Positions 2,806 to 25,820 of a stretch of DNA of 53,862 nt are shown piece after piece. The first letter of the stretch is position 1. The number at the start of each line of letters is the position of its first letter. Where the stretch lies: positions 1-53,862 of the forward strand of contig CALXUG010000015.1 in NCBI GenBank assembly GCA_944391625.1, written 5' to 3'. The notes under the pieces are model-generated. The model was not told where the DNA came from. It worked only from the letters and a program-made list of their open reading frames with translations, and searched no databases. Made by a program: the position numbers and the translations under genes. This stretch comes from an uncultured Clostridia bacterium. Its GTDB lineage: Bacteria > Bacillota > Peptococcia > Peptococcales > Peptococcaceae.

Positions 2806-2999
2806 TATGTTCGTTCTTTCTTTTTTCCTTTTTTTCTTTTTCTCTTTTCCTTATCACAGAATAAACATACACTTAAAATATCCCCCACTGTATAGGAAAT
2901 ATATCGTACAATATCCCGATTAAATAAAAATATAACAGTAGATGTAATGAAACTTACAAAATCTAATACAACATCCTTAAAGAAAGATTTGCTGCGCAT
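2790..2999 (-). CDS. Small membrane protein with basic tail, unknown function
   Basis: 69 residues; ATG 2999 has AGGAGAT 6 nt upstream. A hydrophobic segment covers about residues 10-26 and a weaker one about 34-47; the C-terminal third is extremely basic (KEKRKRKKGKKKE). The gene lies 155 bp downstream of the histidine kinase in the same direction. It does not look like an AgrD-type autoinducer precursor, because it lacks the short acidic recognition tail. The 3' end of this gene is part of the repeat, since the equivalent bases exist at about 240-275 without the gene. Translation is plausible but unproven. Confidence 0.5.
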   Translation of the reverse strand: MRSKSFFKDVVLDFVSFITSTVIFLFNRDIVRYISYTVGDILSVCLFCDKEKRKRKKGKKKERTYRIIF

Positions 3000-3153
3000 A
3001 GAATCATCTCCTGTCTTTTTGCTGTTTCGATCATAGTAATCATATAGCTACCATCACAGCACATGTTTTCTCATATCCATTAGATTGAAAAATGTAATGA
3101 TACATTTATTTATGAAACAACACGCTTGTTTTGTAAGATACTTTCTTCAAATT

Positions 3154-4482: not shown

Positions 4483-5219
4483 AGCGATTCCTCCTGCTGC
4501 ATGCGCCAGTTATAGTAAAGCGCTCTGGTTTGCTGGGCGCGGTTTTTGCTCACCGGCAGTTCTTCCGCTGCGCCGTTTACAGGATTGCGCAAAAATATGG
4601 TATAGTTGCGTATTTCCTTGATATAACGGGGATTTACCAGATAACTCTGGTGGCAGCGGATAAAGCCCAATTGCTGCAGCCGTTTTTCTTCGCTGCTCAG
4701 CTGCCCCCGTTTTTTGTGAGCGCCGGCAATGTGATGCACCACCAACTGGTGCATGGAGGATGAAATATACATCACTTCCATCACTGGAAACTGAAAAACG
4801 CCTTCTTTGTTTTCTAAGGTATACAGCAGCTGGTTTTGATAGCAGCGGTAAAAAAAGCGATCCAGTTCTTCAAAAAATATCATTTGGTCCAAAGGCTTGG
4901 TCAAAAACTGAAAGACCCCCAAACGGGTGGTGTGAATAAAATATTTGGTGTGCGAAGAAACAAAAATGATGGTGATGCCCGGAAATTTTTCTTTCATCAC
5001 CGGCACCAGTTCCACACCCGACGCCCCGCCCAGCTCAATATCCAAAAACAGCAGATTTATCTGTTCCTCGTTGGCTAATAATTCCTGCGCCGAATAAAAT
5101 TGATATACCACGCTCTGATTCTCGGGATATAGTTGTTCATAGTACTGTATCAGCTGCAGCGTCTGTTGATTGGCCTTGGCATCATCATCGCAAATTGCAA
5201 TAGCAGGTAATCTGGCCAT
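4479..5219 (-). CDS. LytTR-family response regulator
   Basis: A 246-residue two-domain regulator. The receiver domain (about 5-125) has acidic residues 11-13, phospho-acceptor D60 in LFLDIEL and K108 in FLTKPL. The C-terminal LytTR DNA-binding domain (about 140-240) carries the typical IRCHQSYLVNPRYI stretch. LytTR proteins bind pairs of direct repeats about two helical turns apart upstream of target promoters. Just such repeats (ACAGTCTAA and ACCGTCTAA) stand before this gene and before two others in the first 2.4 kb, so autoregulation plus a small regulon is inferred. The ATG at 5219 follows an AAGGGGGG ribosome site. Partner kinase is the overlapping downstream gene. Confidence 0.93.
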   Translation of the reverse strand: MARLPAIAICDDDAKANQQTLQLIQYYEQLYPENQSVVYQFYSAQELLANEEQINLLFLDIELGGASGVELVPVMKEKFPGITIIFVSSHTKYFIHTTRLGVFQFLTKPLDQMIFFEELDRFFYRCYQNQLLYTLENKEGVFQFPVMEVMYISSSMHQLVVHHIAGAHKKRGQLSSEEKRLQQLGFIRCHQSYLVNPRYIKEIRNYTIFLRNPVNGAAEELPVSKNRAQQTRALYYNWRMQQEESL

Positions 5220-5246
5220 ACCATCCCCCCTTAAAAGTTTCCTAAT

Positions 5247-5318
5247 ATTATACCTGACCTGGTTGTTAAAAACAATCCAAATGGCATAATTAGACGGTTG
5301 GTGTCAAAATTAGACTGT
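5247..5318 (-). promoter_or_regulatory. LytTR-type operator and promoter of the regulator gene
   Basis: Minus strand: ACAGTCTAA (5310-5318) and ACCGTCTAA (5290-5298), direct repeats 20 bp apart; weak -35 TTGTTT (5270-5275); 17-bp spacer; perfect -10 TATAAT (5247-5252). A weak -35 beneath an upstream operator is what an activator-dependent promoter looks like. Conserved bases continue between and around the repeats relative to the other two copies. The site is also in the divergent gap to the hydrolase gene at 5464, so it might act in both directions. Confidence 0.65.
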
Positions 5319-5463
5319 TTTTGGAGAAATTTTACAGCTATACCCCAATCCGGCTCGGTCTACAGATTGGTTCGGTATCATACAGGGTATTTCACACAGC
5401 GGTTCTCCACGGTATGATAAGCAGGAACCCACTTAACAACCACAAGAAAGGAAGGCGGCTATA

Positions 5464-6168
5464 ATGTGTACCAGATTTGTTTGTTGCGGCGAGAACGTCC
5501 TCACCGGCTTTAATTTTGACATCGACCTTGCTGTTTGGAATCATAAAGTAATCACAGAAACGGATGGTTTCTATATCGGCATTTTACAGCCCGATGGAGT
5601 CTACCATTCCTACCACGGAGTCAACCAAAATGGAAATGCGGGAACGTTGTTATATGTACATGGCAATTCTGCCGGCGCATACCGCAGCGATCCCAACTGC
5701 ATCACTATTGCAGACCTGACGGAACAGTTTATCAAAGGGCAGCTGTCCTTTGCGGAGGCGCTCTATCTGGTCAGGAGAAAGCATATCACCTATGCGCCCG
5801 ATGCTACCATGCAGGCCATGTTGTCAGACAAGCAGGGGCAGGTGCTGATTATCGAGCCGGGCATTGGCTATCGGCAAGTAGAAGATCCCTACGCTTTAAT
5901 CACCAATTATTCGTTGCTCAAACCGGAGAGCACCAAGGCTTTTATCGTGCCGGGCGATGACCGCTACCAACGGGCCTTACGGCAATTAGAACAAGCACCC
6001 GGTCTTTCTGTTGTAGATGCCTTTGCCCTGCTGCGCTCTGTGCGGCAGGAGGGACCGTGGGCTACCAGAGTTTCCTTTGTTTACACAGCCAAAGAACAGG
6101 CGGTGTATTATGCAGAAAATAACGACTTTGCCCATATCAAAAAATTTGTCTTTCCGGCAGCCAAATAA
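5464..6168 (+). CDS. Ntn-hydrolase, choloylglycine-hydrolase-like amidase
   Basis: A 234-residue protein starting Met-Cys-Thr-Arg, the hallmark of Ntn-hydrolases that expose Cys2 as nucleophile after methionine removal (penicillin V acylase and bile salt hydrolase clan). GFNFDID near residue 16-22 matches the usual substrate-loop position, an asparagine lies in LITNYSLL, and ATRVSFVY near 200 resembles the C-terminal arginine motif. It is shorter than a typical bile salt hydrolase (about 320), so the substrate is better left open: a linear amide, N-acyl amino acid or acyl-homoserine lactone are all possible. The ATG follows GAAAGGAAGG. It stands alone, divergent from the LytTR regulator, with a terminator at 6207-6247. 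Cytoplasmic, as no signal peptide is seen. Confidence 0.75.
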   Translation: MCTRFVCCGENVLTGFNFDIDLAVWNHKVITETDGFYIGILQPDGVYHSYHGVNQNGNAGTLLYVHGNSAGAYRSDPNCITIADLTEQFIKGQLSFAEALYLVRRKHITYAPDATMQAMLSDKQGQVLIIEPGIGYRQVEDPYALITNYSLLKPESTKAFIVPGDDRYQRALRQLEQAPGLSVVDAFALLRSVRQEGPWATRVSFVYTAKEQAVYYAENNDFAHIKKFVFPAAK

Positions 6169-6206
6169 GCAACATCGTATTTTGGCACATAATTTTTGGC
6201 ATACAA

Positions 6207-6247
6207 AAACAGCCGCGTCTACAGATATGTGGTAACCGCGGCTGTTT
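6207..6247. terminator. Rho-independent terminator
   Basis: An 11-bp stem, AAACAGCCGCG (6207-6217) with CGCGGCTGTTT (6237-6247), preceded by an A-run and ending in T, placed 38 bp after the hydrolase stop and just before the end of the convergent truncated gene. Probably works in both directions. Confidence 0.8.
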
Positions 6248-6265
6248 GGTAATCAGGTATTGGGG

Positions 6266-6811
6266 TTAGGGGTGGGTTTGCCATAAACTTTCCTCAATCA
6301 AAAACATCCAATACCCTTTATGACTGCTGCCTACTCTCTTAATAATTTGCTGTTTTTTCATCTTATTCAAATAATATTTTACCCTGTCAACTGTCCAACC
6401 AAGTTCCATTGCCAATTCTTTCTGCGTAAATGCAGGGTTATCATGTACAAGAGCAAGAATATGTTTATCTTCCTCTGTAAACTTTAAAATATTCTCTTGG
6501 GTAGTTTGGGTAGTACTTTGGGTAGTTTGGGTAGTACTTTGGGTAGTTTGGGTAGTACTTTGGGTAGCATCATTAGTTTCAATTTTGGTATCATTGGTTT
6601 CATTTTTGGTATCATGTCCTTTCGGATCAACGACACCATTTTGGTCAACGACAGCAGCTTTTCGATAAAGATTTACACGAAAATCGCTGCCCATATCAAT
6701 GAGCTCCGGCTCCGCAAGCCCATATTCTTCGGCCTCACGAAACATTTTGGGAATCCCGCTGCCCCATGCTTCCACCACATTCATATAAGAGAATGCCGCT
6801 GCAATCCCTTA
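6266..6811 (-). pseudogene. 3' remnant of an AlbA_2/RecG-like ATP-binding transcriptional regulator
   Basis: The readable frame begins abruptly at a stop codon near 6812 and continues as GIAAAFSYMNVVEAWGSGIP, which resembles the C-terminal part of the ATP-binding module of AlbA_2 (Schlafen-type) regulators; a WGSGIP motif there is characteristic. The N-terminal DNA-binding/ATP part (several hundred residues) is absent. After it come a Thr/Gln/Ser linker encoded by a 21-bp tandem repeat (6497-6567) and an intact winged-helix domain (about the last 75 residues). An internal ATG at 6784 could produce a 172-residue protein, but no good ribosome site precedes it. A truncated gene is the likelier reading. 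Confidence 0.65.
6497..6567. repeat. 21-bp minisatellite inside the truncated regulator
   Basis: Three exact tandem units of 21 bp (6497-6517, 6518-6538, 6539-6559) plus 8 bases of a fourth. In the minus-strand frame each encodes seven residues built from T, Q and S, so repeat number can change without a frameshift. Each unit itself contains GGGTAGT twice. Confidence 0.9.
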
Positions 6812-6857
6812 ATAGTTTAACCAATCTTTCATTATAATTACATCACCCAAAGAAGAT

Positions 6858-7814
6858 TCAGTTAGCCGCGTTGTTTTTTTTGCGTTCATTGGCCTTTTCT
6901 AACCGCAGGCTGCTGGCGCTGTTAAATTTAAAAATACGGGCGCGGTCTAAAATCCGATCCGATGTTCTGCTGGTATAAAAGGCCTGGATACTGTTCAAAT
7001 CCAAATTGGAATTGATAATCCATGGTTTGTTCTGATAATTGCGGTCTTCTAAAATGGTAACTAATTGTTCCACCACAAAATCGGTGGTGCGTTCTGCCCC
7101 CAAATCGTCAATCACCAGCAGGTCGCAGCTGCGCAGCTGCTCCAGCATTTCACCGCACCGTTTATGGCTTTCTTCATATTTATACTGCCGAATCAGGTCA
7201 AACAAATCGGCCGCCCGTTTGTAAATCACAGTATTGCCATGGGCCATCACTTCATTGGCAATGGCGGCGGACAAGTGGGTTTTTCCTCGGCCCACATCTC
7301 CGGTCAGAAACAGGCACTGTTCACACTGCCCCTGCTCAATCTGCCAGGCAAATTGCTTGCACCAGCGAATTTTTTTCTCCATATCGGCAGGGTCCAGATA
7401 TTTATCGGCATAAAAATTATCAAAGGTATATTGCCGCATGGCCGCGGGCATACCGCTGCGGGAAAACAGTTCCTGCAGCCGTTCCTGCTGATAGCAGGAG
7501 CAAAGCTCGCCCGGTTTTATGTAGCCGCGATCCTGACACTTGGGGCAATCCCACTGCGGTTCATACACAGATTCGTCCAGACCATACTCCTGTAATAACT
7601 GATGCCGCTTTGCCAAAAGCTGTTCGATCTGCTGCTGCAAAGTCTGCTGCTCTTTTTTATTTTTTTGCAAAATTCCTACGCGAATCATGGCAATATTTTT
7701 TTGTCCAATGGTCTGGTCAATCTCCCGCAGCAGTGGAATCTGCCCATACAGCGCCTCGATTCTTTCATCACACTGCCGTTGTTTTTCCAGCCGCAGCTGA
7801 TCCCGGTTTATCAT
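6858..7814 (-). CDS. dnaI: DnaI/DnaC-type replicative helicase loader
   Basis: A 318-residue AAA+ protein. The N-terminal half carries a Cys-rich zinc element (CPKCQDRG and CSC near residues 93-112); the C-terminal ATPase has Walker A GDVGRGKTH and Walker B LLVIDDLGAE. This is the DnaI/DnaC class that loads DnaB/DnaC helicase onto replication origins. The upstream gene is a DnaD-like primosome protein, as expected for a replication-restart or initiation pair. ATG 7814 is chosen over GTG 7817; AGGTG lies 7 nt before it. The spacing to the upstream gene (30 bp) supports one operon. Confidence 0.9.
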   Translation of the reverse strand: MINRDQLRLEKQRQCDERIEALYGQIPLLREIDQTIGQKNIAMIRVGILQKNKKEQQTLQQQIEQLLAKRHQLLQEYGLDESVYEPQWDCPKCQDRGYIKPGELCSCYQQERLQELFSRSGMPAAMRQYTFDNFYADKYLDPADMEKKIRWCKQFAWQIEQGQCEQCLFLTGDVGRGKTHLSAAIANEVMAHGNTVIYKRAADLFDLIRQYKYEESHKRCGEMLEQLRSCDLLVIDDLGAERTTDFVVEQLVTILEDRNYQNKPWIINSNLDLNSIQAFYTSRTSDRILDRARIFKFNSASSLRLEKANERKKNNAAN

Positions 7815-7844
7815 CACAATACACCTGCTCTCTTATGTGTCTGG

Positions 7845-8783
7845 TTATTCCTCCAAAAAGCTTAAATCCACATCTTCCGATTTAAACTTTTGTGTAATGG
7901 CCGGCTTTTGCTTAACAGCTTTGGCCGCCTGATAGTCTTTTTCATTTTTTTGTTTTTCCTGTGCCAGTGCTTCCGGTGTAAAAATACCTTTTTTCTGCCA
8001 ATCCTCCAGCACCTTGTTGATATATTTCAGCGACGGATTGTCGGCTCCTGTGGTTTCCTCCACCGCCAGCATGACCATTTCATGGGTAAATTTCCATTGG
8101 GCGGTCCATTTTAGATACAGTTCCTTCTGTGGTTCGCTGGGATGATTTTTTTTGCCTAACTTGCGCAAAACCTCTGTGGTTTTATAGGTGGTGCTGTTTA
8201 AACTTTCTGCAAATTTCTGAAAACTTTGGCCATCCTTTACCTGAGCGCCGTAAGCCATCTGACAGAAAAAACGAAAATCATAATATTTGCGGTACTGCTG
8301 ATAATAAATTTTGTAAATTTCATATACCAGCGTATAGGACCAATTATACCGCTGCACCACTTCCTGAATATTCTGTTTATCCCGCAATGTCAAAAACAAG
8401 CCCAGTGTCTGCTCCAGTTTTTTTATCAGCTGGGCATAGTTAAACTCCGATGATGTATAACTGTCGTTTTCTTCAGACAAATACTGCGGCTGCTCGCCCA
8501 AATTCATGCTGATTTTATCAAACATAGGCGAAAAATCCACCGTCTGCGTATCGGTAAACCAGTGAATCAGCCCTTTGGCATGCAGTGTGCGGGCGGCTTC
8601 CAGCGCATAATGATCATTACTTTTAATCTGGTCTGTTCCGCAATAAAGCAAATACAATATTTTCCCCAAGTCTTCAAAGTTTAAGCCCAGCGGTTCCATC
8701 AGTCCCAACAGACGGCTGGGAATGCTTACCGTACCGCCTTCAAAAAACCAGGCGGTGATATTTTGTTTACTCACCTGCTCCAC
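7845..8783 (-). CDS. DnaD-domain primosome protein
   Basis: 312 residues with the two-part architecture of DnaD/DnaB primosomal proteins: an N-terminal winged-helix part (roughly 10-110, with IPSRLLGLMEPLGL and the ALEAARTLHAKGLI helix) and a C-terminal DnaB_2/DnaD domain (about 140-230, TLGLFLTLRD to YYDFRFFCQMAYG), then a charged tail. It should remodel DNA at the origin or at stalled forks together with the DnaI-type loader that follows. The start is GTG at 8783, or GTG at 8774 preceded by GAGGTGGA; both fit. It begins one base after the stop of the Asp23 fusion gene, so the two are translationally linked. Confidence 0.85.
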   Translation of the reverse strand: MEQVSKQNITAWFFEGGTVSIPSRLLGLMEPLGLNFEDLGKILYLLYCGTDQIKSNDHYALEAARTLHAKGLIHWFTDTQTVDFSPMFDKISMNLGEQPQYLSEENDSYTSSEFNYAQLIKKLEQTLGLFLTLRDKQNIQEVVQRYNWSYTLVYEIYKIYYQQYRKYYDFRFFCQMAYGAQVKDGQSFQKFAESLNSTTYKTTEVLRKLGKKNHPSEPQKELYLKWTAQWKFTHEMVMLAVEETTGADNPSLKYINKVLEDWQKKGIFTPEALAQEKQKNEKDYQAAKAVKQKPAITQKFKSEDVDLSFLEE

Positions 8784-11677: not shown

Positions 11678-12979
11678 TCAAATATTTCGCAAATCTATTA
11701 CATGTTTCGCTTTTCCTTGAAACCGTTCCAGAGATTTCGGTGCTACAAGTGTTACCTTTACCCGCAACCCTAAAAGAGAACGCAACTTCGTATACAACAT
11801 TGTTTCCAATCGATGCTTTTCTTCACAACCCATAAATTGTGGATTTTGTTTTAACTCCAACTTTACTTCTAATGAATCCATTATACCATCCCGCTGTACT
11901 ACAAGCATATAGTGCGGGCTGAGTGCTGTAATACCTGCAATTGCATTTTCTACTTGCGATGGAAATACATTCACCCCTTTTACAATAATCATATCATCCA
12001 CTCGTCCTTTAATTTTATCAATACGAGCATGGGTACGTCCGCACGCACAGGGTTCGTAATTGATGCAAGTGATATCCCCGGTCCTATAACGAATAATTGG
12101 CATGGCTTCTTTTGTAAGAGAAGTCATTACTAATTCTCCCACTTTTCCTTCCCCTAAGATTTCTTGGTTTTCTATACTAATAATCTCTGGCAGAAAGTGA
12201 TCCTCCGCCACATGTAAGCCTTGCCGTAATTGGCATTCTCCTGCTACACCTGGACCTATCAACTCACTCATACCATAATTATCTGTCACAAAAATACCAG
12301 CGTTCCGCTCAATCATCCTTCTTGCTTCAGTGGAACAACTTTCACTACCGAACAAACCAATTCGCAAATTTAATTTATCCTTTAGTCCACGTTCTGCAAT
12401 TAACTCTGATAAATATAATCCATAAGACGGCGTTGCCACCAACACCGAAGTCTGTAAATCTTCCATCATCAATAATTGTCGCTCTGTATTTCCTGATGAT
12501 AGCGGCACTACCATGGCGCCAACTCGTTCTAGCCCCTGATGCAATCCCAACGCACCTGTAAATAATCCGTAGCCAAAAGAAATCTGAGCTATGTCTTCAC
12601 AGGTAACACCTGCTGCCACAGCGATCCGTGCAACCAAATCAGACCAGTTATTCAAATCATTTCGTGTATAACCCACCAAGGTAGGTTTTCCTGTAGTACC
12701 GGACGATCCCTGCAGTCGCACTAAGTTTTTGCATGGTTGTGCAAAAGCTCCAAAGGGATAGCATTGTCGCAAATCTTCTTTTGTTGTATATGGTAAATAT
12801 TGCAGATCTGATAAATTTTTGATATCTGTTGGTTTTATACCGTTTTCGTCCATTTTAGCTCTATAAAAGGGAACATTTTGGTAGCTATACTGCACACTCC
12901 ATTTCAACCGCTCCAATTGTAGCGCTTCTAACGACTTACGCGGCATCATTTCTATCTCTTGTTGCCACATTGTTGCCAT
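11678..12979 (-). CDS. paaK: Phenylacetate-CoA-ligase-like adenylating enzyme
   Basis: About 433 residues, the usual PaaK length. Adenylation motifs: GSSGTTGKPT (A3 loop) near 98-107, GLFGSESCSTE, the GMSELIGPG turn and YRTGDIT (about 310), then a C-terminal lid beginning KGRVDDMIIVKGVNVFPSQVE. It activates an aromatic acid to its CoA thioester with ATP; phenylacetate is the name-giving substrate but indoleacetate and other arylacetates are accepted by relatives. The chosen ATG 12979 stands 9 nt after AAGGG; ATG 12988 is a longer alternative. It is the last gene of the unit arylsulfotransferase-like, SLC13 transporter, ligase. Clearly more AT-rich than the neighbours at 7-11 kb. Confidence 0.88.
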   Translation of the reverse strand: MATMWQQEIEMMPRKSLEALQLERLKWSVQYSYQNVPFYRAKMDENGIKPTDIKNLSDLQYLPYTTKEDLRQCYPFGAFAQPCKNLVRLQGSSGTTGKPTLVGYTRNDLNNWSDLVARIAVAAGVTCEDIAQISFGYGLFTGALGLHQGLERVGAMVVPLSSGNTERQLLMMEDLQTSVLVATPSYGLYLSELIAERGLKDKLNLRIGLFGSESCSTEARRMIERNAGIFVTDNYGMSELIGPGVAGECQLRQGLHVAEDHFLPEIISIENQEILGEGKVGELVMTSLTKEAMPIIRYRTGDITCINYEPCACGRTHARIDKIKGRVDDMIIVKGVNVFPSQVENAIAGITALSPHYMLVVQRDGIMDSLEVKLELKQNPQFMGCEEKHRLETMLYTKLRSLLGLRVKVTLVAPKSLERFQGKAKHVIDLRNI

Positions 12980-13034
12980 ATTCATCATCCCTTATTGAAA
13001 ATTAGCCGGAAGAAAAACCTTCCGGCTAATTGCT

Positions 13035-14492
13035 CTATCCAAAAATCATTTGTACAATCGGAATCCCTAAGCAGCAAAGCACCATTGCAACTACAATAAA
13101 GCACCCTGCATATTTATAGATATCCTTTGTTCGAATCCATTCACTATTACCGAACATAACCGCAGCCATTGGTGAAGCGGATGGAAATAAAAATGCCAAG
13201 AAGCAAGAGTATACAATTAATACCATTAATGCCACAGGTGAAATACCTAATGCTAATCCTATTGGATAAAATGCTGGAAATAAAATAGTTGGCACTGTTA
13301 CATTAATCATAAAGTTTGTCAATATTAATGCACTTGCAGATACTAATACCAAAAATACAATTGGAGATTTCCCTTCTACAAGTGGGCTTAATACCTGCAC
13401 CAAAAAAGCATTAATTCCTGCTTTTTCCGATGAAAACACTCGTAACGCCAATGGTAGTACCGCTGCACCTAAAAACATTACATCAAAGGAAACGCCTTCA
13501 CGGATGATGGAACGAGGCTCCATTAAAGGTTCTCCATCTACATGAATGATACACATCAGTAAACATATTAAAGCCGCAACACCTGTTGCAGAAATTTTAC
13601 TAAAGATAATATTGAATATCCAATTTACAGGCGTAATACTCGGTGCCAACATCATGATAACCAACGCCAACATCAAAGCTAACATTATTTTCTGACCTTT
13701 ATTCAAAGATAAATCTTTTGCCGCAAAATATTCTTCATCCAATGCTTTCAAATTTTCTGTGGATATACGAAATACAAATTTACCAAGTAAAATATAACTC
13801 GCTAGTAAAATACTACACATCATAAATGACCACACAGTAAAAATAAAACTATTAAGAACCATACCACTGATCTCTTCTAGCATTACAAAAGCTACCGCAC
13901 CAACAGTACGGAACGGAAACAGCCCATCACCTAAACAGGCAGCAATCACGATACCAATTAACATATAACTAGTATACGGCATATTTTTTTCTAGTTTCAC
14001 TTCTTCTACGATATCATAAAAAATAACCCATCCTAAAAATATCATTGCTGTTGAACTTGTCATGGAAGAAATTAAAGAAATAGCAATTAAAAAGCTATAA
14101 GAAAATAGCCATGGGCGACCTAATACAACTTTTCTTGAAATGAACCATAAGGCTATCAGTTTACTGATTCCTGCCTTTTCTAAACTTTTGGCTACCATCA
14201 TCATGAAAAAAATCAGCAACATAACAGGACTGCCCCAGCCATTGGCAAATACTTCACCCAACGGTAATACACCTAACAATGGCATGGCCAATATACCCAC
14301 AATACTCGGCCAAATCATACCTAGCGTGCACCAACCAAATAATAAACCAAAAAAGATACCTATCGTTTTCATTCCATAGGAAGTTAACGGTTCTGGAGCT
14401 GGTAAATAACCAAATCCAAATATCAATAAGAAAAAAATCGCTATTTTTATCCAAAATTTTATTTGACTGTCTTTTGTGCTTGCTGTATCCAT
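13035..14492 (-). CDS. SLC13/DASS-type sodium:anion symporter
   Basis: About 485 residues with roughly eleven to twelve hydrophobic helices. It has the DASS-family features, including repeated Ser/Asn-Thr-rich re-entrant loops: SSMTSSTAMIFLGW near 150 and NFMINVTVPTILFPAF near 410. Members import dicarboxylates, sulfate or other small anions with Na+. In this context (arylsulfotransferase and aryl-CoA ligase neighbours) an aromatic acid or sulfate ester is a reasonable but unproven cargo. ATG 14492 was preferred to ATG 14510 because GGGAG lies 11 nt ahead of it. A terminator-like hairpin (14511-14568) stands in front of the gene. Confidence 0.88.
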   Translation of the reverse strand: MDTASTKDSQIKFWIKIAIFFLLIFGFGYLPAPEPLTSYGMKTIGIFFGLLFGWCTLGMIWPSIVGILAMPLLGVLPLGEVFANGWGSPVMLLIFFMMMVAKSLEKAGISKLIALWFISRKVVLGRPWLFSYSFLIAISLISSMTSSTAMIFLGWVIFYDIVEEVKLEKNMPYTSYMLIGIVIAACLGDGLFPFRTVGAVAFVMLEEISGMVLNSFIFTVWSFMMCSILLASYILLGKFVFRISTENLKALDEEYFAAKDLSLNKGQKIMLALMLALVIMMLAPSITPVNWIFNIIFSKISATGVAALICLLMCIIHVDGEPLMEPRSIIREGVSFDVMFLGAAVLPLALRVFSSEKAGINAFLVQVLSPLVEGKSPIVFLVLVSASALILTNFMINVTVPTILFPAFYPIGLALGISPVALMVLIVYSCFLAFLFPSASPMAAVMFGNSEWIRTKDIYKYAGCFIVVAMVLCCLGIPIVQMIFG

Positions 14493-14510
14493 AATAAGTT
14501 CATCTCCCAT

Positions 14511-14568
14511 CTAAAGAAAAAGCAAAGGCACCTCTTAAACCATATATTAGATTCGAGATACCCTTGCT
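14511..14568 (-). terminator. Intercistronic terminator or attenuator
   Basis: Minus strand: a 14-bp stem with no mismatch (some G-T pairs) between 14555-14568 and 14521-14534, then TTTTTCTTT, lying between the first arylsulfotransferase-like gene and the SLC13 gene. The ribosome site and ATG of the transporter follow directly. It should reduce or regulate read-through into the transporter and ligase genes. Confidence 0.75.
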
Positions 14569-14600
14569 GGAAACATTGTTTATCCTTTATTTCTCGGCTA

Positions 14601-15881
14601 TTAACTATTAATTTTATTTGCCCAATACATGGCTTCTGCACCAAATAACTGATTCAACTGTTGTGTTTTTTTCATATCAAAAATTTTACCAGCTAAACCT
14701 GGATAATTTAGTGGATAACGCATAGCTCTAAATACACAGTTGGTTTTACCATGACGAACTCCAGAATTCGTGTAAAATGGAGATAAGTATTCCCAAACAA
14801 TTTCTTTATTTTGTGTTACTTCAAAGAACCGACCGGTAGCACCTTCACAGATAAACGTATTACCATTCGGCAGTCGCTGGCAACTACTAATATAAGTAGA
14901 ATAAAAATCAACTGGAACTTCAGACCGATACTCCCACTCTATTTTGTTGGTTTCTGGATTAATTTCAATTACTCGGCTGAAATCTGGTGGGAAATAGTTT
15001 GTACTACCATCTGGATCAGCAGAGTGGAATCGGCCATTATCAAAGAATAAAATATTACCATTCTCTAATCCATGCGGATCATGTGGGAAGGAAATTTTCT
15101 GTTCTTCCTGCCCAAAACGCCATTTTACTTTTTTGGTTTCTTTATCCCAAATATAAACTTGACTTAAATTGTAGGAAGTGGAAATCAAATTACCATCCGG
15201 TAATTCTTCAATAGAATTTAAACCTGGCCATAAAGAACGCCCTGTTAATGGAGTAATCACATCTAGTTCTGGATCTAATGCTTCAGATAAATCCATTTCC
15301 CACACAACTTCATTCTGTGGATTCAACTCTGTTAATACTAACGTATAAATTTTTCCTTGTGCATCTGCTGTTGGGCGTTCACCTGCTTTATGACTCCATG
15401 CTGGGTTAGAACCGCCTACTTCAGAACCTGGCAGGCCACCTTTAATTTTAGCTTGTAACTCTGGACGAATTTCTTTTACAACATTTACAATGGTATTCCC
15501 ATTTTTCAAACGGCAACGGTCATGGTAATCATGGTTCATATTGTCATATTCCCATACAATATTACTATCCCAGTCCAGTTCCATCACAGTAGTACAATTA
15601 AAACCAACATTAATAAAATTTTCTGGATATCGTTCTTTTATATCTACAGAACACAGAATATGACCATTCGGCAGTAAATCTGCATGCATTTTAATTAAAC
15701 CTGGAACTTCCCAATAGTGAACGAAATTACCATTCATGTCCATTAAATAAACTTTACTGGTTGTATTGCCTTCCATCTGTTTCCATCTTGTTAACAGTGG
15801 ACAAAATAGTGTGTATCCCTCATAAGCCTTATCTACACGATGTGTACTAACCCCATGTTTACCTCTTTTTACTAATGACAT
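14601..15881 (-). CDS. Arylsulfotransferase-family protein (beta-propeller)
   Basis: 426 residues with repeated propeller blades, visible as recurring W-E-Y or W-x-F edges (NIVWEYDNM, VVWEMDL, KVKWRFG, KIEWEYRS, EIVWEYLS) and LPNGN/DGN turns. It matches the ASST (bacterial aryl-sulfate sulfotransferase) family, which moves a sulfuryl group between phenols through a sulfo-histidine. H in FPHDPHGLENGN followed by FFDNG aligns by spacing with the H-x9-x-FDNG element of the second copy (16854-18740), so it is the likely active histidine. No signal peptide, unlike periplasmic E. coli AssT. Ribosome site AGGAGG precedes ATG 15881. First gene of a unit with the SLC13 transporter and the ligase. Confidence 0.8.
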   Translation of the reverse strand: MSLVKRGKHGVSTHRVDKAYEGYTLFCPLLTRWKQMEGNTTSKVYLMDMNGNFVHYWEVPGLIKMHADLLPNGHILCSVDIKERYPENFINVGFNCTTVMELDWDSNIVWEYDNMNHDYHDRCRLKNGNTIVNVVKEIRPELQAKIKGGLPGSEVGGSNPAWSHKAGERPTADAQGKIYTLVLTELNPQNEVVWEMDLSEALDPELDVITPLTGRSLWPGLNSIEELPDGNLISTSYNLSQVYIWDKETKKVKWRFGQEEQKISFPHDPHGLENGNILFFDNGRFHSADPDGSTNYFPPDFSRVIEINPETNKIEWEYRSEVPVDFYSTYISSCQRLPNGNTFICEGATGRFFEVTQNKEIVWEYLSPFYTNSGVRHGKTNCVFRAMRYPLNYPGLAGKIFDMKKTQQLNQLFGAEAMYWANKINS

Positions 15882-16047
15882 ATAAAACTCCTCCTATACT
15901 ATATTTTGTATATGATATATTGCTTTTTGCTTACCGGTTAAGCATTACTTTTGACACATTTAATATATCACAGACTTCCATAGTATACCTGTAGTCTAAA
16001 CTTCACCTTATTAGGTTTATTAGTTTGTCTTATATACCTTATTGTAA

Positions 16048-16083
16048 TTGTAAACAAATCATATCTATGTTATTCTTAACATA
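16048..16083 (+). promoter_or_regulatory. Promoter and Crp/Fnr-like operator of the regulator gene
   Basis: TTGTAA (16048-16053), 17-bp spacer and TATTCT (16071-16076). Over the -10 lies a perfect inverted repeat, TATGTTA-TTCT-TAACATA (16066-16083), with the arm-N4-arm geometry of FNR-type sites. Because it covers the -10, binding should repress the regulator's own gene; it may also reach the divergent arylsulfotransferase promoter. Confidence 0.5.
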
Positions 16084-16132
16084 TGTTTTACCCTAATAAT
16101 ATCTAAATCCTTTTGGTGAAAGGAGCATGCTT

Positions 16133-16798
16133 ATGGAATCCGCAGCAGTTGATTATTTGATAAACTTTCCTAAACAAGCTTTTGATAAAAATGATTTTAT
16201 CGTTCGGCAAGGTCAAGCTGTTGAATATATCTATTTTTTAGCAGAGGGTTGTTGTATTCGTAATATCTTTACCATAAAAGGGGATGAAATTATTTACGAC
16301 GAGCGCATTGCAAATAATTCCGCTTATTGTTTACTCGGTGCTCTCACCTTATATACACCTATTATTATTCATGAAACTAATTTTATTGCTAAAACAAACT
16401 GTATTTGCCATAAAATTTATTATAAAGATTTTTTAGAATTTCTTTCACTTTATCCATCCGTATTGCACGAACTCTTGCAAATGGCATTATCCAGCTATCA
16501 AAATATAAATGCAAACTTTCATGCCAAACAAAAAGGGCAAGCACCTTGCCGTGTATGTAGTTTTCTACTGGAAAATGCCAAATTATCAGGTGAAAATTAT
16601 ATCTTAGACAAACACTTCTCCATATCAGAGATTGCTCGCTACCTAGGTATGCACCGCATCACTGTCAGTAAAATCATTTTGGCTTTATGTGATGAAGGCT
16701 GCTGCACGCACGCAGAAAAAGGATTGCTTCTTCAAAACAGAGAAACACTACAATTATATGCTTCTGGTGACGAAAAACTGAACTATTTGAAACGGTAA
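16133..16798 (+). CDS. Crp/Fnr-family transcriptional regulator
   Basis: About 221 residues. The N-terminal cyclic-nucleotide-binding-like jelly roll spans about 15-110 (VRQGQAVEYIYFLAEGCC), followed by a long dimer helix (about 112-135) and a C-terminal helix-turn-helix FSISEIARYLGMHRITVSKII (about 163-183). No FNR-type N-terminal cysteine cluster is seen; a few cysteines (GQAPCRVC, CCIRN) are scattered. It lies divergent from one arylsulfotransferase gene and convergent with another, so it very likely controls this cluster, as in dehalogenation or aromatic-degradation loci where Crp/Fnr proteins sense the aromatic substrate. ATG 16133 sits 7 nt after AAAGGAG; ATG 16127 is too close. Confidence 0.88.
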   Translation: MESAAVDYLINFPKQAFDKNDFIVRQGQAVEYIYFLAEGCCIRNIFTIKGDEIIYDERIANNSAYCLLGALTLYTPIIIHETNFIAKTNCICHKIYYKDFLEFLSLYPSVLHELLQMALSSYQNINANFHAKQKGQAPCRVCSFLLENAKLSGENYILDKHFSISEIARYLGMHRITVSKIILALCDEGCCTHAEKGLLLQNRETLQLYASGDEKLNYLKR

Positions 16799-16814
16799 GT
16801 CTATTAAATCCATT

Positions 16815-16847
16815 AAAAAAGCTGCTGCAAAATTGCAACAGCTTTTT
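16815..16847. terminator. Bidirectional terminator between the regulator and second arylsulfotransferase
   Basis: Hairpin with arms AAAAAGCTGCTGCAA and TTGCAACAGCTTTTT (one mismatch), an A-run on one side and T-run on the other, lying between two convergent genes. Confidence 0.85.
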
Positions 16848-16853
16848 CTAATT

Positions 16854-18740
16854 TTATCTTTTATTTACAACAATTCCTGTCTCATAAATTTTATCTTCTA
16901 ACAATAATTTTACTGTTTGCGGTCCCTGTAAACCATTTTTATTGACAAATACATCTACATTACGCGGATCAGCTTTCTGAAAGGTTCCTACACACATAGC
17001 AGTAAATGTTTTCACTACTGTATTAATCGGATAGCGACGAATGTTCCCGTTCGCATCCTCCAACAACAATTGTGCCAACTCTCCAGATTCAAATGTAGTA
17101 TTCAATGTAAAACGATCTTCTTCCTCTACAATAGAAACGCCATAGCTTTCCGGCACTAGTTGGCCAGTTTCCGTCGCTCGAACCTTCATTTTTGTTGTTT
17201 TACTTTCAATCAAACTGCCAAGAATTTTTCCCATGCCAAATTCCGCCACTTCCCCAGCATAATACAATGGCAATTTTTCAGCTCGATAACAATTAGCTGG
17301 TACTTGTAATTCATATACTAATTCATCATTCTTCAGTTCACAAGTGATGGTGTTAAATGTATACACTTTATCCCGATGTTTTGGGCTCATTGCACGAGTT
17401 ACCGCAAAACCGTCACAGATTTTTCCATTTTCATAACCAATACCCCCAGAATGTACCATATAATGTCCTTCATTATAATATTCTACATTAGAAATATATG
17501 GTGAAAAGAATTCTGCACCTCGTTCTTTTCCATATTGCCAGATTTGCTGAATTGTCATATCATCTGTATTGATACGATACCGAACGCCACGGGAATAATT
17601 TTGGCTGTTCAAAATATAATTATCCTTTTTCTTTGCTCGATAATGCCCGTTGTCAAATACAAAAATATCTCCATCGGGTAGCACCATACAAGCATGCTGT
17701 TCGTACTGCCACTCGAAATTATCGCCTACCGGAGTAAAGAAATATTGGTCCACCATTTCCTGCGGCCATCCCTCTGGATCTCCAATGATCCAGTTTAACT
17801 TACCAGTTTCATAGTCAATATTAATAATAGCATCTTGGTGTCGCCCAGAAATGGTCAACGAATTAGTCTTTTTATCATACCAAATTGCATTATTATGGAA
17901 CCAGTCCTCTGTAGTCTGACTACCGGAACCAGCTACATTCTGCGGCAAAATGTCTTTGTAATCCCATTTTTTTATGATTCCACCTGTTTTACGGTCCAGC
18001 AACACGCAAACATCTTCAACTGTGCCAGAATAATAATCAAATGTTAATGTCAATATGTTACCATCTTCCATTTCAATTTGGTCATGATGATAGCCACTGG
18101 GTAACTGATATTCTGCAAAAATTTTCCCACTCAATGCCATTTCGTATAAACCGCTAGTAAAATACGGCATTTTTACTAAGCGTTCTGTCCCAACCAAAAT
18201 ATGTCCATTAGAAAGGCGTTTTAAGTCAAACGCAAAATTTCGGTTAGCATACCAACGTACATCGCCAGCATAATCGTACGCTACCGGCATAGCACGCATG
18301 GCGGCTGTTAAAAACATTACGTTCTGCCCCATATATTCCGATGTCGTCTTAATTGAAGTTACCAGCGGTACATCTGGATGCAACGGTTCCGTCTGGATAA
18401 CAATTTTATTACGCTCACCATTAGACAAAATCAACTCCACTTGATTAGCATAGTCAGCATATAGTCCGTAAATAGGTAGAATATGTTCCTGAGTTGCTGA
18501 AAACGTATGACTGATATTCCCTGCAGCTTCTTTCCCATGTACAATTACTGTCACTTCAACAACTACAGGTGTTCTAAATAAAATCATTGCAGTTAATGGA
18601 CAAAGTTCATAAGCATTCAACTTTACCAGCGGCTGCTCCAATGTATAATAACCACCAGCAAATTCTTGCAAAAATGCTTTTTCTGCTTCATATTGCTTGC
18701 TAATAATATGCTTCTCTTTTTTATAAACAATCGTGTCCAT
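16854..18740 (-). CDS. Arylsulfate sulfotransferase (AssT family)
   Basis: About 628 residues, close to E. coli AssT in layout: an N-terminal Ig-like domain (about 1-130) followed by a six-bladed propeller. Catalytic-type histidines are visible in YHHDQIEMEDGN, HNNAIWYDK, SGRHQDAI and the key EQHACMVLPDGD followed by FVFDNG (position of the sulfo-histidine in AssT). It has no signal peptide or Cys pair, so it should work in the cytoplasm, unlike the periplasmic enzymes. ATG 18740 is chosen, since the longer frame's first five codons are the ribosome site itself (GAGGAGGGATAAT). It is monocistronic, with an operator-like inverted repeat upstream (18772-18792). Confidence 0.9.
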   Translation of the reverse strand: MDTIVYKKEKHIISKQYEAEKAFLQEFAGGYYTLEQPLVKLNAYELCPLTAMILFRTPVVVEVTVIVHGKEAAGNISHTFSATQEHILPIYGLYADYANQVELILSNGERNKIVIQTEPLHPDVPLVTSIKTTSEYMGQNVMFLTAAMRAMPVAYDYAGDVRWYANRNFAFDLKRLSNGHILVGTERLVKMPYFTSGLYEMALSGKIFAEYQLPSGYHHDQIEMEDGNILTLTFDYYSGTVEDVCVLLDRKTGGIIKKWDYKDILPQNVAGSGSQTTEDWFHNNAIWYDKKTNSLTISGRHQDAIINIDYETGKLNWIIGDPEGWPQEMVDQYFFTPVGDNFEWQYEQHACMVLPDGDIFVFDNGHYRAKKKDNYILNSQNYSRGVRYRINTDDMTIQQIWQYGKERGAEFFSPYISNVEYYNEGHYMVHSGGIGYENGKICDGFAVTRAMSPKHRDKVYTFNTITCELKNDELVYELQVPANCYRAEKLPLYYAGEVAEFGMGKILGSLIESKTTKMKVRATETGQLVPESYGVSIVEEEDRFTLNTTFESGELAQLLLEDANGNIRRYPINTVVKTFTAMCVGTFQKADPRNVDVFVNKNGLQGPQTVKLLLEDKIYETGIVVNKR

Positions 18741-18771
18741 ATTATCCCTCCTCATAAAATAACATTACATC

Positions 18772-18946: not shown

Positions 18947-19459
18947 ATGGATCTCTCGCAAATCTATCAACTATATTTCCATGATGTTTATTTATTTCTC
19001 AAAAGTTTATCCTGTTCAGAACATCTTGCCGAAGAAATTACACAAGAAACATTTCATAAAGCATTGCGTTCACTGCATCAATTTGACGGTCAAAAAGACA
19101 TTCGCGCCTGGCTGTTCACCATTGCCCGCAACACCTATTATACCCAGTACCGCAAACAGCAACGGCTTACCCAACTGTCTGATGATGATGTGGCACAGAA
19201 TACCGGAGTAACCATTCTGGAACAAATCTCCAACGAAGAAGAAGCCTTTTCCATTCATCAATTCCTGCACAATATGGAAGAGCCTTATAAAGAGGTTTTT
19301 ACGCTGCGAGTATTTGGTGAACTGTCCTTTCGGCGAATCGGTCAGCTGTTTGGCAAAAATGACAGCTGGGCCCGCGTTACCTTTTATCGCGCCAAACAAA
19401 AAATCATTGCCCATATGGAGGTGTTACACCATGACAACCAATCCCCATTCTCAAACTGA
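18947..19459 (+). CDS. ECF-type RNA polymerase sigma factor
   Basis: 170 residues with sigma region 2 (about 5-70: YQLYFHDVYLFLKSL, AEEITQETFHKAL and the DIRAWLFTIARN promoter-melting stretch) and region 4 (about 110-160: EPYKEVFTLRVFGELSFRRIGQLFGKNDSWARVTFYRAKQKI, the -35-binding helix-turn-helix). It lacks other sigma regions, so it is an ECF sigma. The anti-sigma gene overlaps its last 29 bases. ATG 18947 follows AAAGGAGG. An upstream TGTAACG (about 18894) may be a self-recognised -35, but no matching -10 is clear. Confidence 0.92.
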   Translation: MDLSQIYQLYFHDVYLFLKSLSCSEHLAEEITQETFHKALRSLHQFDGQKDIRAWLFTIARNTYYTQYRKQQRLTQLSDDDVAQNTGVTILEQISNEEEAFSIHQFLHNMEEPYKEVFTLRVFGELSFRRIGQLFGKNDSWARVTFYRAKQKIIAHMEVLHHDNQSPFSN

Positions 19460-20126
19460 TACGGAAAAAAAACTGCTTCAGCAAGAAGTAACCGCTGCTC
19501 TTTCAGAACAATGCGCCATTGTACAGGATTTACTGCCTTTATATATTGAACAGATCGTCAGCCCTGCCAGCCACTCCTTTGTGGAAACCCATCTGCAGCA
19601 ATGCCCGCTCTGTCAGGAACAGTTAAAACAATTACAGCAAACCTTGGTCATCCCTGCTGAACTGAATACCAAACCGCTGCAGCAGATACAAAAACAACAA
19701 AGCCGCAATATTTTGAAGACTATTTTTTTCACCGCCATTGTCTGTTGTTGTTTTTTAGCAGGCATTTCCTTCCTCTATCTCATAGAATGGCCTTGTGATT
19801 CAAGCAATGTACAGCTAGAAAGCAGCTATGAAGAAATCACGATAAACGGAGAAACAACAACTTATTTTGTTTTAGACTTTCTGCCCGATACGGTAGAAAT
19901 TGAGCGGGATACTTCTACCTACTTTAAAGAAAATAACAGAACTGAAATGCACTGCAACATCATTCAGACTACCCCAGTAAGACAATTTTTAATTAATAAG
20001 AAAACACATTATTATGACATCATGTTATATCCCGACTGGAAAACGGATCCTGATGTTACAAATGTTTTAACACTGCAATTTGCCGACCGCACAGTGACCT
20101 ATGTCAACGGTGTGCTGCAAGAATAG
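19431..20126 (+). CDS. Membrane anti-sigma factor with zinc-finger (zf-HC2)
   Basis: About 231 residues from ATG 19431, preceded by GGAGGTG. An N-terminal HxxxCxxC element (ETHLQQCPLC, about residue 50) marks a zinc-containing anti-sigma domain that holds the ECF sigma inactive. One membrane helix follows at about 92-118 (LKTIFFTAIVCCCFLAGISFLYLI), and the remaining roughly 110 residues face outward with no known family. The outward part would sense the signal and the zinc domain would then release the sigma factor. Overlap with the sigma gene implies translational coupling, fixing the ratio of the two proteins. Confidence 0.85.
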   Translation: MTTNPHSQTDTEKKLLQQEVTAALSEQCAIVQDLLPLYIEQIVSPASHSFVETHLQQCPLCQEQLKQLQQTLVIPAELNTKPLQQIQKQQSRNILKTIFFTAIVCCCFLAGISFLYLIEWPCDSSNVQLESSYEEITINGETTTYFVLDFLPDTVEIERDTSTYFKENNRTEMHCNIIQTTPVRQFLINKKTHYYDIMLYPDWKTDPDVTNVLTLQFADRTVTYVNGVLQE

Positions 20127-20279: not shown

Positions 20280-21287
20280 TTAATAATGTACATCTTCTGC
20301 GGTAATCCGTTTGCGGAACACATAATAGTTCCAGCTCTGATACAACAGCACAATGGGCACCAGAGTCAGTGCAACAATGGTCATTACCTTCAAGGTATAC
20401 GGACTGGAGCTGGCATTATAAATGGTTAAACTCCAGGCTGGATCTAATGTAGAGATCAGCACATTTGGGAACATTCCGGCAAATACACTGGCTGTTACAA
20501 ACAAAATCGCCAGGAACATCGCAATAAAGGAAAATCCTTTTTTATCTTTCAGCTGTAATACTACCGCCGCTACCAAAGCCACTGCAGCGAAAGCCACACA
20601 AGCCAACGCCAACAGACCGCTGTAAATATCGGTCAGGATATACGCCAGCACCACCCAGATAACAACAGCTGCTACCAGCACAAAGCCCAGTTTATCAGCC
20701 AGACTTTTTACCCGCTGCAAAATAACATCAGAACCCACTTTTAATTTTAAGAACAATGCGCCATGGAACGCAAACAACAATACAAAAACAACACCGCCAA
20801 AAATAGTGAACGGAGTCAGCAGGGTAAAGAAATTACCTGCAAACTGCATATTGGCATCAATCGGTACGCCTGTCACCAGATTGGTAACGGCTACCCCCCA
20901 CAAAAATGCAGAAAGGAAACTGCTGATGGCAATCAGCCAATCCCAGGTATTTCTCCATTGCTTGCTTTCTTTTTTACTGCGCACCTCAATGCCCACACAG
21001 CGCACAATCAAGGTCAGCAGCACCAGGAACAGCGCCATATAAAAACCGCTGAACAAAGTAGCATACCAGTTAGGAAAAGCTGCAAAAATTGCACCGCCGG
21101 CAGTCAGCAGCCAAACCTCGTTGCCATCCCAAAACGGACCAAAGGTATTTAATACAATTCTGCGTTCTGTATCGTTTTTGGCCACAATGGGATTCAGCAT
21201 CCCTACGCCATAATCAAAGCCTTCCAAAAAGAAGAATCCGATAAACAGAACGGTCACCAAAATAAACCAGAGAATGTTTAAGTCCAT
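20280..21287 (-). CDS. cydB: Cytochrome bd ubiquinol/menaquinol oxidase subunit II
   Basis: 335 residues, the normal CydB length, with about eight membrane helices. The N-terminal FFFLEGFDYGVGML is diagnostic, and GPFWDGNEVWLLTAGGAIFAAFP follows. CydB pairs with CydA to reduce O2 to water without proton pumping. In an anaerobe this commonly protects from low oxygen. The gene overlaps the end of cydA by 10 bp, so it is translationally coupled; ribosome site GAGGTGTC precedes the ATG. A terminator follows. Confidence 0.97.
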   Translation of the reverse strand: MDLNILWFILVTVLFIGFFFLEGFDYGVGMLNPIVAKNDTERRIVLNTFGPFWDGNEVWLLTAGGAIFAAFPNWYATLFSGFYMALFLVLLTLIVRCVGIEVRSKKESKQWRNTWDWLIAISSFLSAFLWGVAVTNLVTGVPIDANMQFAGNFFTLLTPFTIFGGVVFVLLFAFHGALFLKLKVGSDVILQRVKSLADKLGFVLVAAVVIWVVLAYILTDIYSGLLALACVAFAAVALVAAVVLQLKDKKGFSFIAMFLAILFVTASVFAGMFPNVLISTLDPAWSLTIYNASSSPYTLKVMTIVALTLVPIVLLYQSWNYYVFRKRITAEDVHY

Positions 21288-22657
21288 AAGGACACCTCCT
21301 CACTTGCAGTTGGCGCTTCTTCCAGCGCTTCCGGAGATTTCTTGCCATATTTTACAAGCAGCATCACATCTACAACTGCCAAAATACCATAGACAAGGGT
21401 AAAACCAATCATACTAATCAAAATGTAGCTGGCAGGCACCACAGTGGAAATCCCTTCCGCTGTTTTTTGCAAACCGTATACAATCCATGGCTGACGGCCC
21501 ATTTCCGTAATCAGCCAGCCGGTTGTATTGGCAATGTAAGGCAATGCCATTGCAAACAGCATCACTTTTAAATACAGTTTACTGTTCTGCAGCTTACCTG
21601 TTTTCAGCAATACAACCCCGATCAAAGCCAGCAGCACCATCAATCCACCAGCGCCTACCATGGCTCTAAAGCTCCAGAACAACGGTGTCACCTGCGGCAC
21701 ATAGTTGCCTTCACCATACTTGGCTTCGTACTCAGCCTGCAAATCATGAATCCCTTTTACTTCACCGCTAAAGGAATTATACGTCATAAAACTGAGCATA
21801 TTGGGAATTTCGATAGAGAATGTGTTTTCCCCGGCTTCTTCATCAATGGCAGCAATGGCCACAAAGGATGCCGGATCTTCGGTTTCCCAGTGGGCTTCAG
21901 CAGCAGCCATTTTCATTGGCTGCACATCCATCAAAAACTGCCCTTGGGCATGGCCGATACCGCAAACAGCCAGCACGCCAATCAAACCGTAAATGACAGA
22001 ATATTTGAAGGATTTTTGGAAAAAGTCCACATCATGCTTTTTAGCCAGATGCCAGGCGCTGATCCCCATAACAAAAAATCCTGCTGTTGTAATTCCGGCA
22101 GTTACCACATGGGGGAACTGATGCCATACATAAGGATTGGTAATCAGATCAAAGAAATTGACCATCTCTGCCCGCCCGTTGTTGAGTACAAACCCCTGCG
22201 GATTTTGCATGAACGAGTTGGCTACTAAAATCCAAAATGCTGATAAATTGCTGGCGAATGCTACCAGCCAGATAGAAAGCAGGTGCAGCAGTTTGGGCAG
22301 TTTATCCCAGCCGAAAATCCAGATTCCCAAAAAGGTGGATTCGATAAAGAATGCTGCCAGCGCTTCAATGGCCAGCGGCGCCCCAAAAATATCGCCTACA
22401 AAGCGGGAATATTCAGACCAGTTCATGCCAAACTGAAATTCCTGCACAATACCGGTGGCAACCCCAAGGGCGAAGTTAATTAAAAACAATTTGCCCCAGA
22501 ACTTGGTCATCTTCCGGTATTTCAAATCATTGGTGCGATAATATTTCGTATGCATAATAGCGACCAGAATGGACAGACCAAGTGTCAGTGGAACAAATAA
22601 AAAGTGATAGACAGTTGTAATTGCAAACTGCCATCTCGCAAACAATAGTTGATCCAT
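21278..22657 (-). CDS. cydA: Cytochrome bd oxidase subunit I
   Basis: 459 residues. The heme b595-side histidine sits in RWQFAITTVYHFLFVPLTLG near the N-terminus, a second helix has FPHVVTAGITTAGFF, and the GRQPWIVYGL quinol-loop landmark is near 390. The Q-loop is short, as in Gram-positive CydA. With CydB it forms the quinol oxidase in the cytoplasmic membrane. ATG follows AAAGGAGGAG. No cydCD was seen in the window, so heme/cysteine export or assembly genes lie elsewhere. The 280-bp gap upstream holds AT-rich DNA with a GCAAAATTTTGC palindrome (22753-22764) of unclear meaning. Confidence 0.97.
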   Translation of the reverse strand: MDQLLFARWQFAITTVYHFLFVPLTLGLSILVAIMHTKYYRTNDLKYRKMTKFWGKLFLINFALGVATGIVQEFQFGMNWSEYSRFVGDIFGAPLAIEALAAFFIESTFLGIWIFGWDKLPKLLHLLSIWLVAFASNLSAFWILVANSFMQNPQGFVLNNGRAEMVNFFDLITNPYVWHQFPHVVTAGITTAGFFVMGISAWHLAKKHDVDFFQKSFKYSVIYGLIGVLAVCGIGHAQGQFLMDVQPMKMAAAEAHWETEDPASFVAIAAIDEEAGENTFSIEIPNMLSFMTYNSFSGEVKGIHDLQAEYEAKYGEGNYVPQVTPLFWSFRAMVGAGGLMVLLALIGVVLLKTGKLQNSKLYLKVMLFAMALPYIANTTGWLITEMGRQPWIVYGLQKTAEGISTVVPASYILISMIGFTLVYGILAVVDVMLLVKYGKKSPEALEEAPTASEEVSLWT

Positions 22658-25315: not shown

Positions 25316-25726
25316 ATGAAAAAAATATTAGGAATATGCTTGGCTGTTTTTTTATTATACCTTTATATCTCTTTAAATTACATTTACGTACCCATGTTAA
25401 CAGAAAATACAGCAAAAATAGAAAAAATAGTTCTAATTTCTCATAATAAAAGTAATTGTTACGAAAAAATTTTAACTCCTGATGATAAAAACTTTGAACA
25501 ACTTATTTCCAGAATTAATCACAAGGGGAGAATACAAAATGTAGACGGTGGGTATTACCATGAAAGGGAATATGAAATTATAATCTACTATCTTGATGGT
25601 ACAAAAGATATTCTTGCATTTACAGAAGGATTAAAATTCATTTTTAGAGTTTTGGATTATAAAGAAGATATGTATGTCATTCATAACAAAGGGGAAGAAA
25701 TACTGCAACTCATGAATGAAGTTTAA
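25316..25726 (+). CDS. Small membrane-anchored or secreted protein, unknown
   Basis: 136 residues from ATG 25316, which has AGGAAGG 6 nt upstream. A single N-terminal hydrophobic segment (about 4-21, ILGICLAVFLLYLYIS) could be a signal peptide or anchor; the rest is an outward soluble domain with alternating beta-strand character (EYEIIIYYLDGTKDILAF). No family recognised. It is followed after 94 bp by the lipoprotein-like gene in the same direction. Base composition is markedly AT-rich relative to the MATE/MerR genes just before, suggesting separate origin. Confidence 0.6.
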   Translation: MKKILGICLAVFLLYLYISLNYIYVPMLTENTAKIEKIVLISHNKSNCYEKILTPDDKNFEQLISRINHKGRIQNVDGGYYHEREYEIIIYYLDGTKDILAFTEGLKFIFRVLDYKEDMYVIHNKGEEILQLMNEV

Positions 25727-25820
25727 GTATATTTCTATTAAGACCATACTGAAAAATTATCTACAATATATTTTGAAACAACGTACTTCGTTCAAGAACG
25801 TATTCAACAAGGAGGATATC

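Follow-up and report, generated by a model that had tools for sequence, protein, structure and literature searches.

Cytoplasmic arylsulfotransferase modules linked to anion transport, thioredoxin and sulfite reductase suggest how sulfated aromatics may yield hydrogen sulfide

Genes for arylsulfotransferases (ASSTs) are linked in many bacterial genomes to genes for transporters and thioredoxin systems and, at some loci, to genes for sulfite reductase. This wider association is the finding of interest here, and the linked gene sets suggest that sulfated aromatics are turned into hydrogen sulfide by a route not described before. The locus examined lies in the window, a contig of 53,862 nucleotides from an uncultured Clostridia bacterium of the Peptococcaceae. 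We see an even chance that it is one among several cytoplasmic modules with which a sulfite-reducing gut bacterium of Peptococcaceae type uses sulfate esters, working by a route from ASST through thioredoxin to Dsr. The broader proposal is that cluster II aryl sulfotransferases (ASTs) start a widespread ATP-independent pathway from sulfate ester to sulfide (ASST, thioredoxin, then Asr or Dsr), of which the window carries a PaaK-linked variant; the case for it seems to us evenly balanced.

Gene layout and the two arylsulfotransferases

The locus consists of five genes, all with intact reading frames, and one candidate regulatory site:

11678..12988, minus strand: PaaK-like aryl-acid CoA ligase, final gene of the ASST'-DASS-PaaK unit (TIGR02155 and PDB matches)
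13035..14510, minus strand: DASS/CitMHS-type anion transporter (PF03600, TIGR00785, VcINDY/NadC-type structures)
14601..15881, minus strand: small ASST paralog (ASST'), diverged, 426 aa, opening the ASST'-DASS-PaaK unit (PF05935)
16066..16083, no strand: perfect inverted repeat TATGTTA-TTCT-TAACATA, candidate regulator site
16127..16798, plus strand: Crp/Fnr-family regulator (PF13545, Crp HTH; PF00027, cNMP-binding)
16854..18755, minus strand: large ASST, cluster II type, 633 aa, separate transcription unit (PF05935 and PF17425)

Minus-strand genes follow the order large ASST, small ASST, transporter and ligase. The Crp/Fnr gene sits between the two ASST genes, convergent with the large one and divergent from the small one. 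ASST'-DASS-PaaK is a probable operon because its intergenic gaps are 90 and 46 nt, and the opposite-strand Crp gene separates it from the large ASST. An earlier note on this DNA observed the same five genes, although its end coordinate of 18740 falls slightly short of the large ASST start at 18755. It rightly described them as more AT-rich than their neighbours: GC3 is 0.25-0.34, versus about 0.43-0.56 in nearby genes. This composition is not unique in the window, where positions 656-1600 and 25716-27083 are similarly AT-rich. The second of these regions (plus strand) encodes a putative lipoprotein of 455 aa with repeat-like sequence, strongly AT-rich and in composition like the ASST island. 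On the other side of the locus, an ECF sigma factor gene and an overlapping downstream ORF (18947-20126, plus strand) diverge from the large ASST and are followed by cydAB-like genes at 20280-22657.

Both ASST proteins match PF05935, and neither has a hydrophobic N-terminal stretch, which agrees with the earlier description of two family members without signal peptides. The maximum 12-residue Kyte-Doolittle mean within the first 50 residues is 0.32 for the large protein and 0.81 for the small one; the LamB signal peptide scores 2.3 on this test.

The large ASST matches PF05935 over its full length (363.5 bits, profile positions 2-367 of 374) and carries a PF17425 Ig-like N domain. When it is aligned to AssT from uropathogenic E. 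coli (UPEC; EcAST, 3elq), the equivalents of H252, H356, N358, R374 and H436 are all kept. The sole sulfuryl-binding residue that differs is T501, which is replaced by Ile here and nearly throughout the clade (Ile in 104 of 105 relatives, Leu in one); the other EcAST sulfuryl-binding residues are kept in 104/105 members. One Cys is invariant in the family (window residue 588, 104/104). The protein is a canonical cluster II enzyme, and sulfuryl transfer is its predicted activity.

The best identity of the large ASST, 72%, is to Desulfosporosinus ASSTs, including the copy at locus L102 of Desulfosporosinus HMP52. A tree places it among Desulfosporosinus copies (SH-aLRT 92), away from those of its own genus, and the Desulfosporosinus loci on this branch mostly read DASS-ASST-Trx-TrxR (Trx, thioredoxin; TrxR, thioredoxin reductase). 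The HMP52 enzyme DsAST, which is likely the product of the L102 gene, is biochemically active (PMC11468790), and 4-nitrophenyl sulfate is used by the cluster II enzymes of Desulfitobacterium, Desulfosporosinus sp. HMP52 and Hungatella effluvii. The earlier designation 'cytoplasmic ASST' therefore holds, though it describes nothing new: such enzymes were already known to be active. Some relatives are degenerate. One large ASST paralog (L086:4029-5876, G001:C15) lies on a very long branch and has lost most catalytic residues (H252N, N358S, R374T, H436G). Another gene (L095/L117, G009:C77), adjoining DASS and Crp genes, has an in-frame stop, which seems to reflect either recent loss of the gene's function or an error in assembly.

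The small ASST matches PF05935 with 65.7 bits and belongs, in diverged and shortened form, to a second ASST type of ~480 aa, which is common in the family of the window bacterium and its relatives. Proteins of that type keep the motifs DWMHIN (H356), DAREAN (R374) and QHH (H436). In the 426-aa protein, LWPGLN replaces the first and STSYNL the second, so that the H356 and R374 equivalents are lost, and the His of the H436 region is retained. Its AlphaFold model (pLDDT 60) is a propeller that scores Z 29 to Cpz4 and Z 23 to EcAST. Among 398 genomes of the phylum no ortholog was found; the partial matches have 44-54% identity to the 480-aa type over the C-terminal half. Sulfotransferase activity of this protein is doubtful because two sulfate-coordinating residues are lost. 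Import of an aromatic sulfate followed by intracellular sulfuryl transfer, as proposed in the earlier note, is the best reading for the large enzyme.

Transporter, ligase and regulator at this and other loci

The transporter exceeds the PF03600 cut-off (47 bits) and misses that of the DASS model TIGR00785 (80.9 bits against 198.6). It is therefore a CitMHS/DASS-type transporter whose DASS membership is not certain; VcINDY/NadC-type structures match it with E 3e-6. DASS proteins usually carry di- and tricarboxylates. Genes of this type number 37 in the window genome, and 33 and 25 in two other genomes of the set (G008 and G003), all three being 2-3 Mb in size. Some of them adjoin flavoprotein genes with weak matches to the AprA model (for example, G003:C70 and G008:C97).

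The PaaK-like ligase matches TIGR02155 along its full length at 495.9 bits, below the equivalog cut-off of 646.3 bits. It also has an AMP-binding_C_2 match, and the phenylacetate-CoA ligases 2y27 and 4r1l match it in the PDB with E<=1e-106. The gene is the only close copy in its genome. Several of its relatives in the order adjoin an ACT-domain gene, two of them also IorAB-like genes (identified by eye). A PaaK homolog is absent from all other ASST loci compared, and the ligase is accordingly rejected as a conserved member of the module. The four genes grouped in the earlier note are rarely together in other genomes; the set is not conserved because PaaK is unique to the window locus.

These results bear on another explanation, which covers the ASST'-DASS-PaaK operon alone and is compatible with our reading of the large enzyme. 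The operon might serve uptake and CoA activation of a carboxylate or aryl acid, with the small ASST acting as a non-catalytic sensor or binding propeller, or else catalysing a new reaction. We hold this to be possible, if somewhat short of probable. It accommodates the missing H356 and R374 equivalents and the lack of an ortholog, the usual cargo of DASS proteins together with the many such genes in the genome, and the restriction of PaaK to this locus. It fits less well with the retained fold and H436-region His of the 426-aa protein, with the intact ASST next door, and with the relatives, in which the transporter adjacent to the small ASST accompanies an enzyme with catalytic residues.

Without the ligase, the set of ASST, transporter and regulator recurs widely, as a gene-cluster search of the kind recommended in the earlier note shows. 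Among 73 ASST loci in named genomes, DASS genes occur within 5 kb at 49 and Crp or LysR genes at 41. Many loci of Bacillota and Desulfobacterota carry the combination, and in the genomes of the window family most ASST genes have as neighbours a transporter, of the DASS or another type, and a regulator of the Crp or LysR family. The window genome itself has several ASST genes, most of which have a transporter or regulator gene of their own. A DASS gene adjoins four of its five ASST loci (chance about 0.002), which is weak to moderately informative evidence because there are 37 CitMHS/DASS genes in that genome.

The regulator (PF13545 and PF00027) diverges from ASST'-DASS-PaaK, in line with the earlier description of a divergent Crp/Fnr protein. 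A CprK-like identity was considered and set aside, as a PDB search returned just weak DNR/CAP matches. The inverted repeat lies upstream of the Crp gene, between it and the divergent operon, and the window has no other exact TGTTA-N4-TAACA. A related sequence, TGTTA-N6-TAACA, precedes 10/43 ASST-linked Crp genes versus 11/1717 other genes, where shuffles expect 0.02; the ten are related loci rather than independent ones, and some of the eleven sites may belong to divergent partners. The window repeat may tentatively be taken as equivalent to these candidate sites, with caution because its spacer is shorter (4 versus 6 nt).

Chance could in principle have brought unrelated genes together in an AT-rich island. 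DASS genes are very common in the window genome, PaaK is not among the conserved genes of the module, and the island may, from the tree, be horizontally acquired. We nonetheless judge such clustering very improbable, given the recurrence of ASST with DASS and Crp or LysR genes across two phyla and of palindrome-like half-sites upstream of linked Crp genes.

Thioredoxin, sulfite reductase and the fate of the sulfuryl group

Clustering of the neighbours of ASST genes yields a thioredoxin-reductase cluster present at 49 loci and two thioredoxin clusters present at 32 and 12. One or both genes of this system are near the ASST at 48 of the 73 named-genome loci; counting genes no more than 5 kb from the large ASST, thioredoxin reductase occurs at 43 and thioredoxin at 39. 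The ASST-linked thioredoxins have the motif CGPC in 32 cases, and most of the second group have CHVC. AsrA, AsrB and AsrC are near the ASST at 13, 13 and 12 of the 73 loci. In Hungatella and relatives these components form one operon, DASS-TrxR-Trx-ASST-ASST-AsrA-AsrB-AsrC, followed by the siroheme genes HemA, Met8 and HemC. About a dozen loci, all of them from Firmicutes, have this arrangement; its AsrA, AsrB and AsrC exceed NCBIfam cut-offs, and its thioredoxin reductase and thioredoxin fall close below theirs. AsrA/AsrB-like genes beside the ASST at locus L112 were rejected as Asr, since on inspection they appear to be an Hdr/Flox-like set. There, HdrA-like, MvhD-like and Fe-S/flavin genes (L112:about 2900-8300, G012:C7) directly precede the large ASST and are a possible electron supply for sulfite reduction.

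Of 49 ASST-bearing genomes tested, 47 have a gene of the NIR_SIR family, which includes nitrite reductases too. ATP sulfurylase is absent in 34 of the 49, and 32 of those 34 have NIR_SIR. As background, 71/150 genomes in the family of one Hungatella-type ASST carrier have NIR_SIR genes, few of which resemble the AsrC type in match range and length.

The window genome (G000), which is 96% complete, encodes DsrA, DsrB and DsrC above cut-off (G000:C55), the gene set by which we recognise a sulfite reducer. The pair used to define a canonical sulfate reducer went undetected: among the window genome and 19 relatives, ATP sulfurylase (PF01747) was detected in 0/20 and AprA above cut-off in 0/20, the window genome having no AprA match at all. 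It has two PF01507 matches, of 579 and 365 aa. With DsrABC present and ATP sulfurylase and AprA undetected, the bacterium probably obtains sulfite from organic sources, for which the ASST modules are candidates. Neither thioredoxin nor its reductase is encoded in the window module or beside the other ASST copies seen in this genome, and presumably a thioredoxin encoded elsewhere in the genome serves the module.

In APS and PAPS reductases, a Cys-S-sulfonate is resolved to sulfite and a disulfide. Similar chemistry is central to the reading we favour. The DASS transporter, controlled by the Crp/Fnr regulator, would import an aromatic sulfate or some other organic anion, and the large ASST would transfer the sulfuryl group to its active-site histidine, releasing the phenol. 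A thioredoxin cysteine would then be the sulfuryl acceptor: its thiolate would attack the sulfo-histidine to give a Cys-S-sulfonate, from which sulfite would be released with disulfide formation, as in the PAPS/APS enzymes. DsrAB and DsrC, encoded elsewhere in the genome, would reduce the sulfite to sulfide without ATP activation. At the window locus, PaaK may couple the freed aryl acid to CoA. From gene content, catalytic residues, the wider Trx/TrxR/Asr linkage, DsrABC and the undetected ATP sulfurylase and AprA, we infer the substrate, the role of transport, thioredoxin as acceptor, sulfite as product and the PaaK substrate. The likely passage of the sulfate group to sulfite and sulfide did not figure in the earlier note; the evidence for it lies outside the window.

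ASST acts as a ping-pong transferase; the enzyme of Eubacterium A-44 did not hydrolyse its donor (PMC13426309). An acceptor is therefore needed, yet according to a 2026 review neither the natural acceptor nor the physiological role is known for most aryl sulfotransferases of bacteria (PMC13426309). Acceptors shown for ASTs in vitro are phenols and alcohols (PMC13426309, PMC11576661), which counts against thioredoxin, as do the lack of Trx and TrxR genes beside the ASSTs of the window genome and the confinement of the Asr operon to its dozen or so Firmicutes loci. The same in vitro work favours transfer without reduction, in which imported aryl sulfates would sulfate other phenols for detoxification or exchange. 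The thioredoxin system would merely keep ASST cysteines reduced, and the invariant Cys could be its target. We consider this unlikely, as it leaves unexplained both the AsrABC and siroheme genes inside an ASST operon and the frequency of NIR_SIR in ASST-bearing genomes that often lack ATP sulfurylase.

Comparison with known systems

A search of open-access papers found no description of ASST-Trx-Asr or ASST-DASS linkage. The linkage proposes a concrete role for ASTs, with thioredoxin as acceptor and sulfite as product, that is testable in cultured strains such as Hungatella hathewayi DSM 13479. If the proposal is true, aryl sulfates could support respiration in gut bacteria that lack sulfate activation, and host or dietary phenol sulfates such as p-cresol or indoxyl sulfate would join the known gut sources of hydrogen sulfide.

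The large ASST shares its catalytic residues and lack of a signal peptide with the cluster II enzymes DhAST, DsAST and Hungatella effluvii ASST. Those have been studied as in vitro tools, in papers that report neither gene neighbourhood nor physiological acceptor. In structure the 426-aa protein is closest to Cpz4, the Streptomyces caprazamycin sulfotransferase (9kf4), at 18% identity; the 426-aa protein lacks the sulfate-coordinating His and Arg.

The UPEC AssT-DsbL-DsbI system has the same catalytic propeller, the same sulfo-histidine residues and likewise a pairing with a thiol redox system. It is periplasmic and forms disulfides, whereas the window relatives are cytoplasmic and paired with reducing thioredoxin and thioredoxin reductase, neither of which is at the window locus. 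In organosulfonate respiration by Bilophila, sulfite from taurine or isethionate feeds Dsr, so that organic sulfur likewise bypasses sulfate activation. The window bacterium would differ in drawing on a sulfate ester, which needs a two-electron reduction, proposed here to proceed via thioredoxin.
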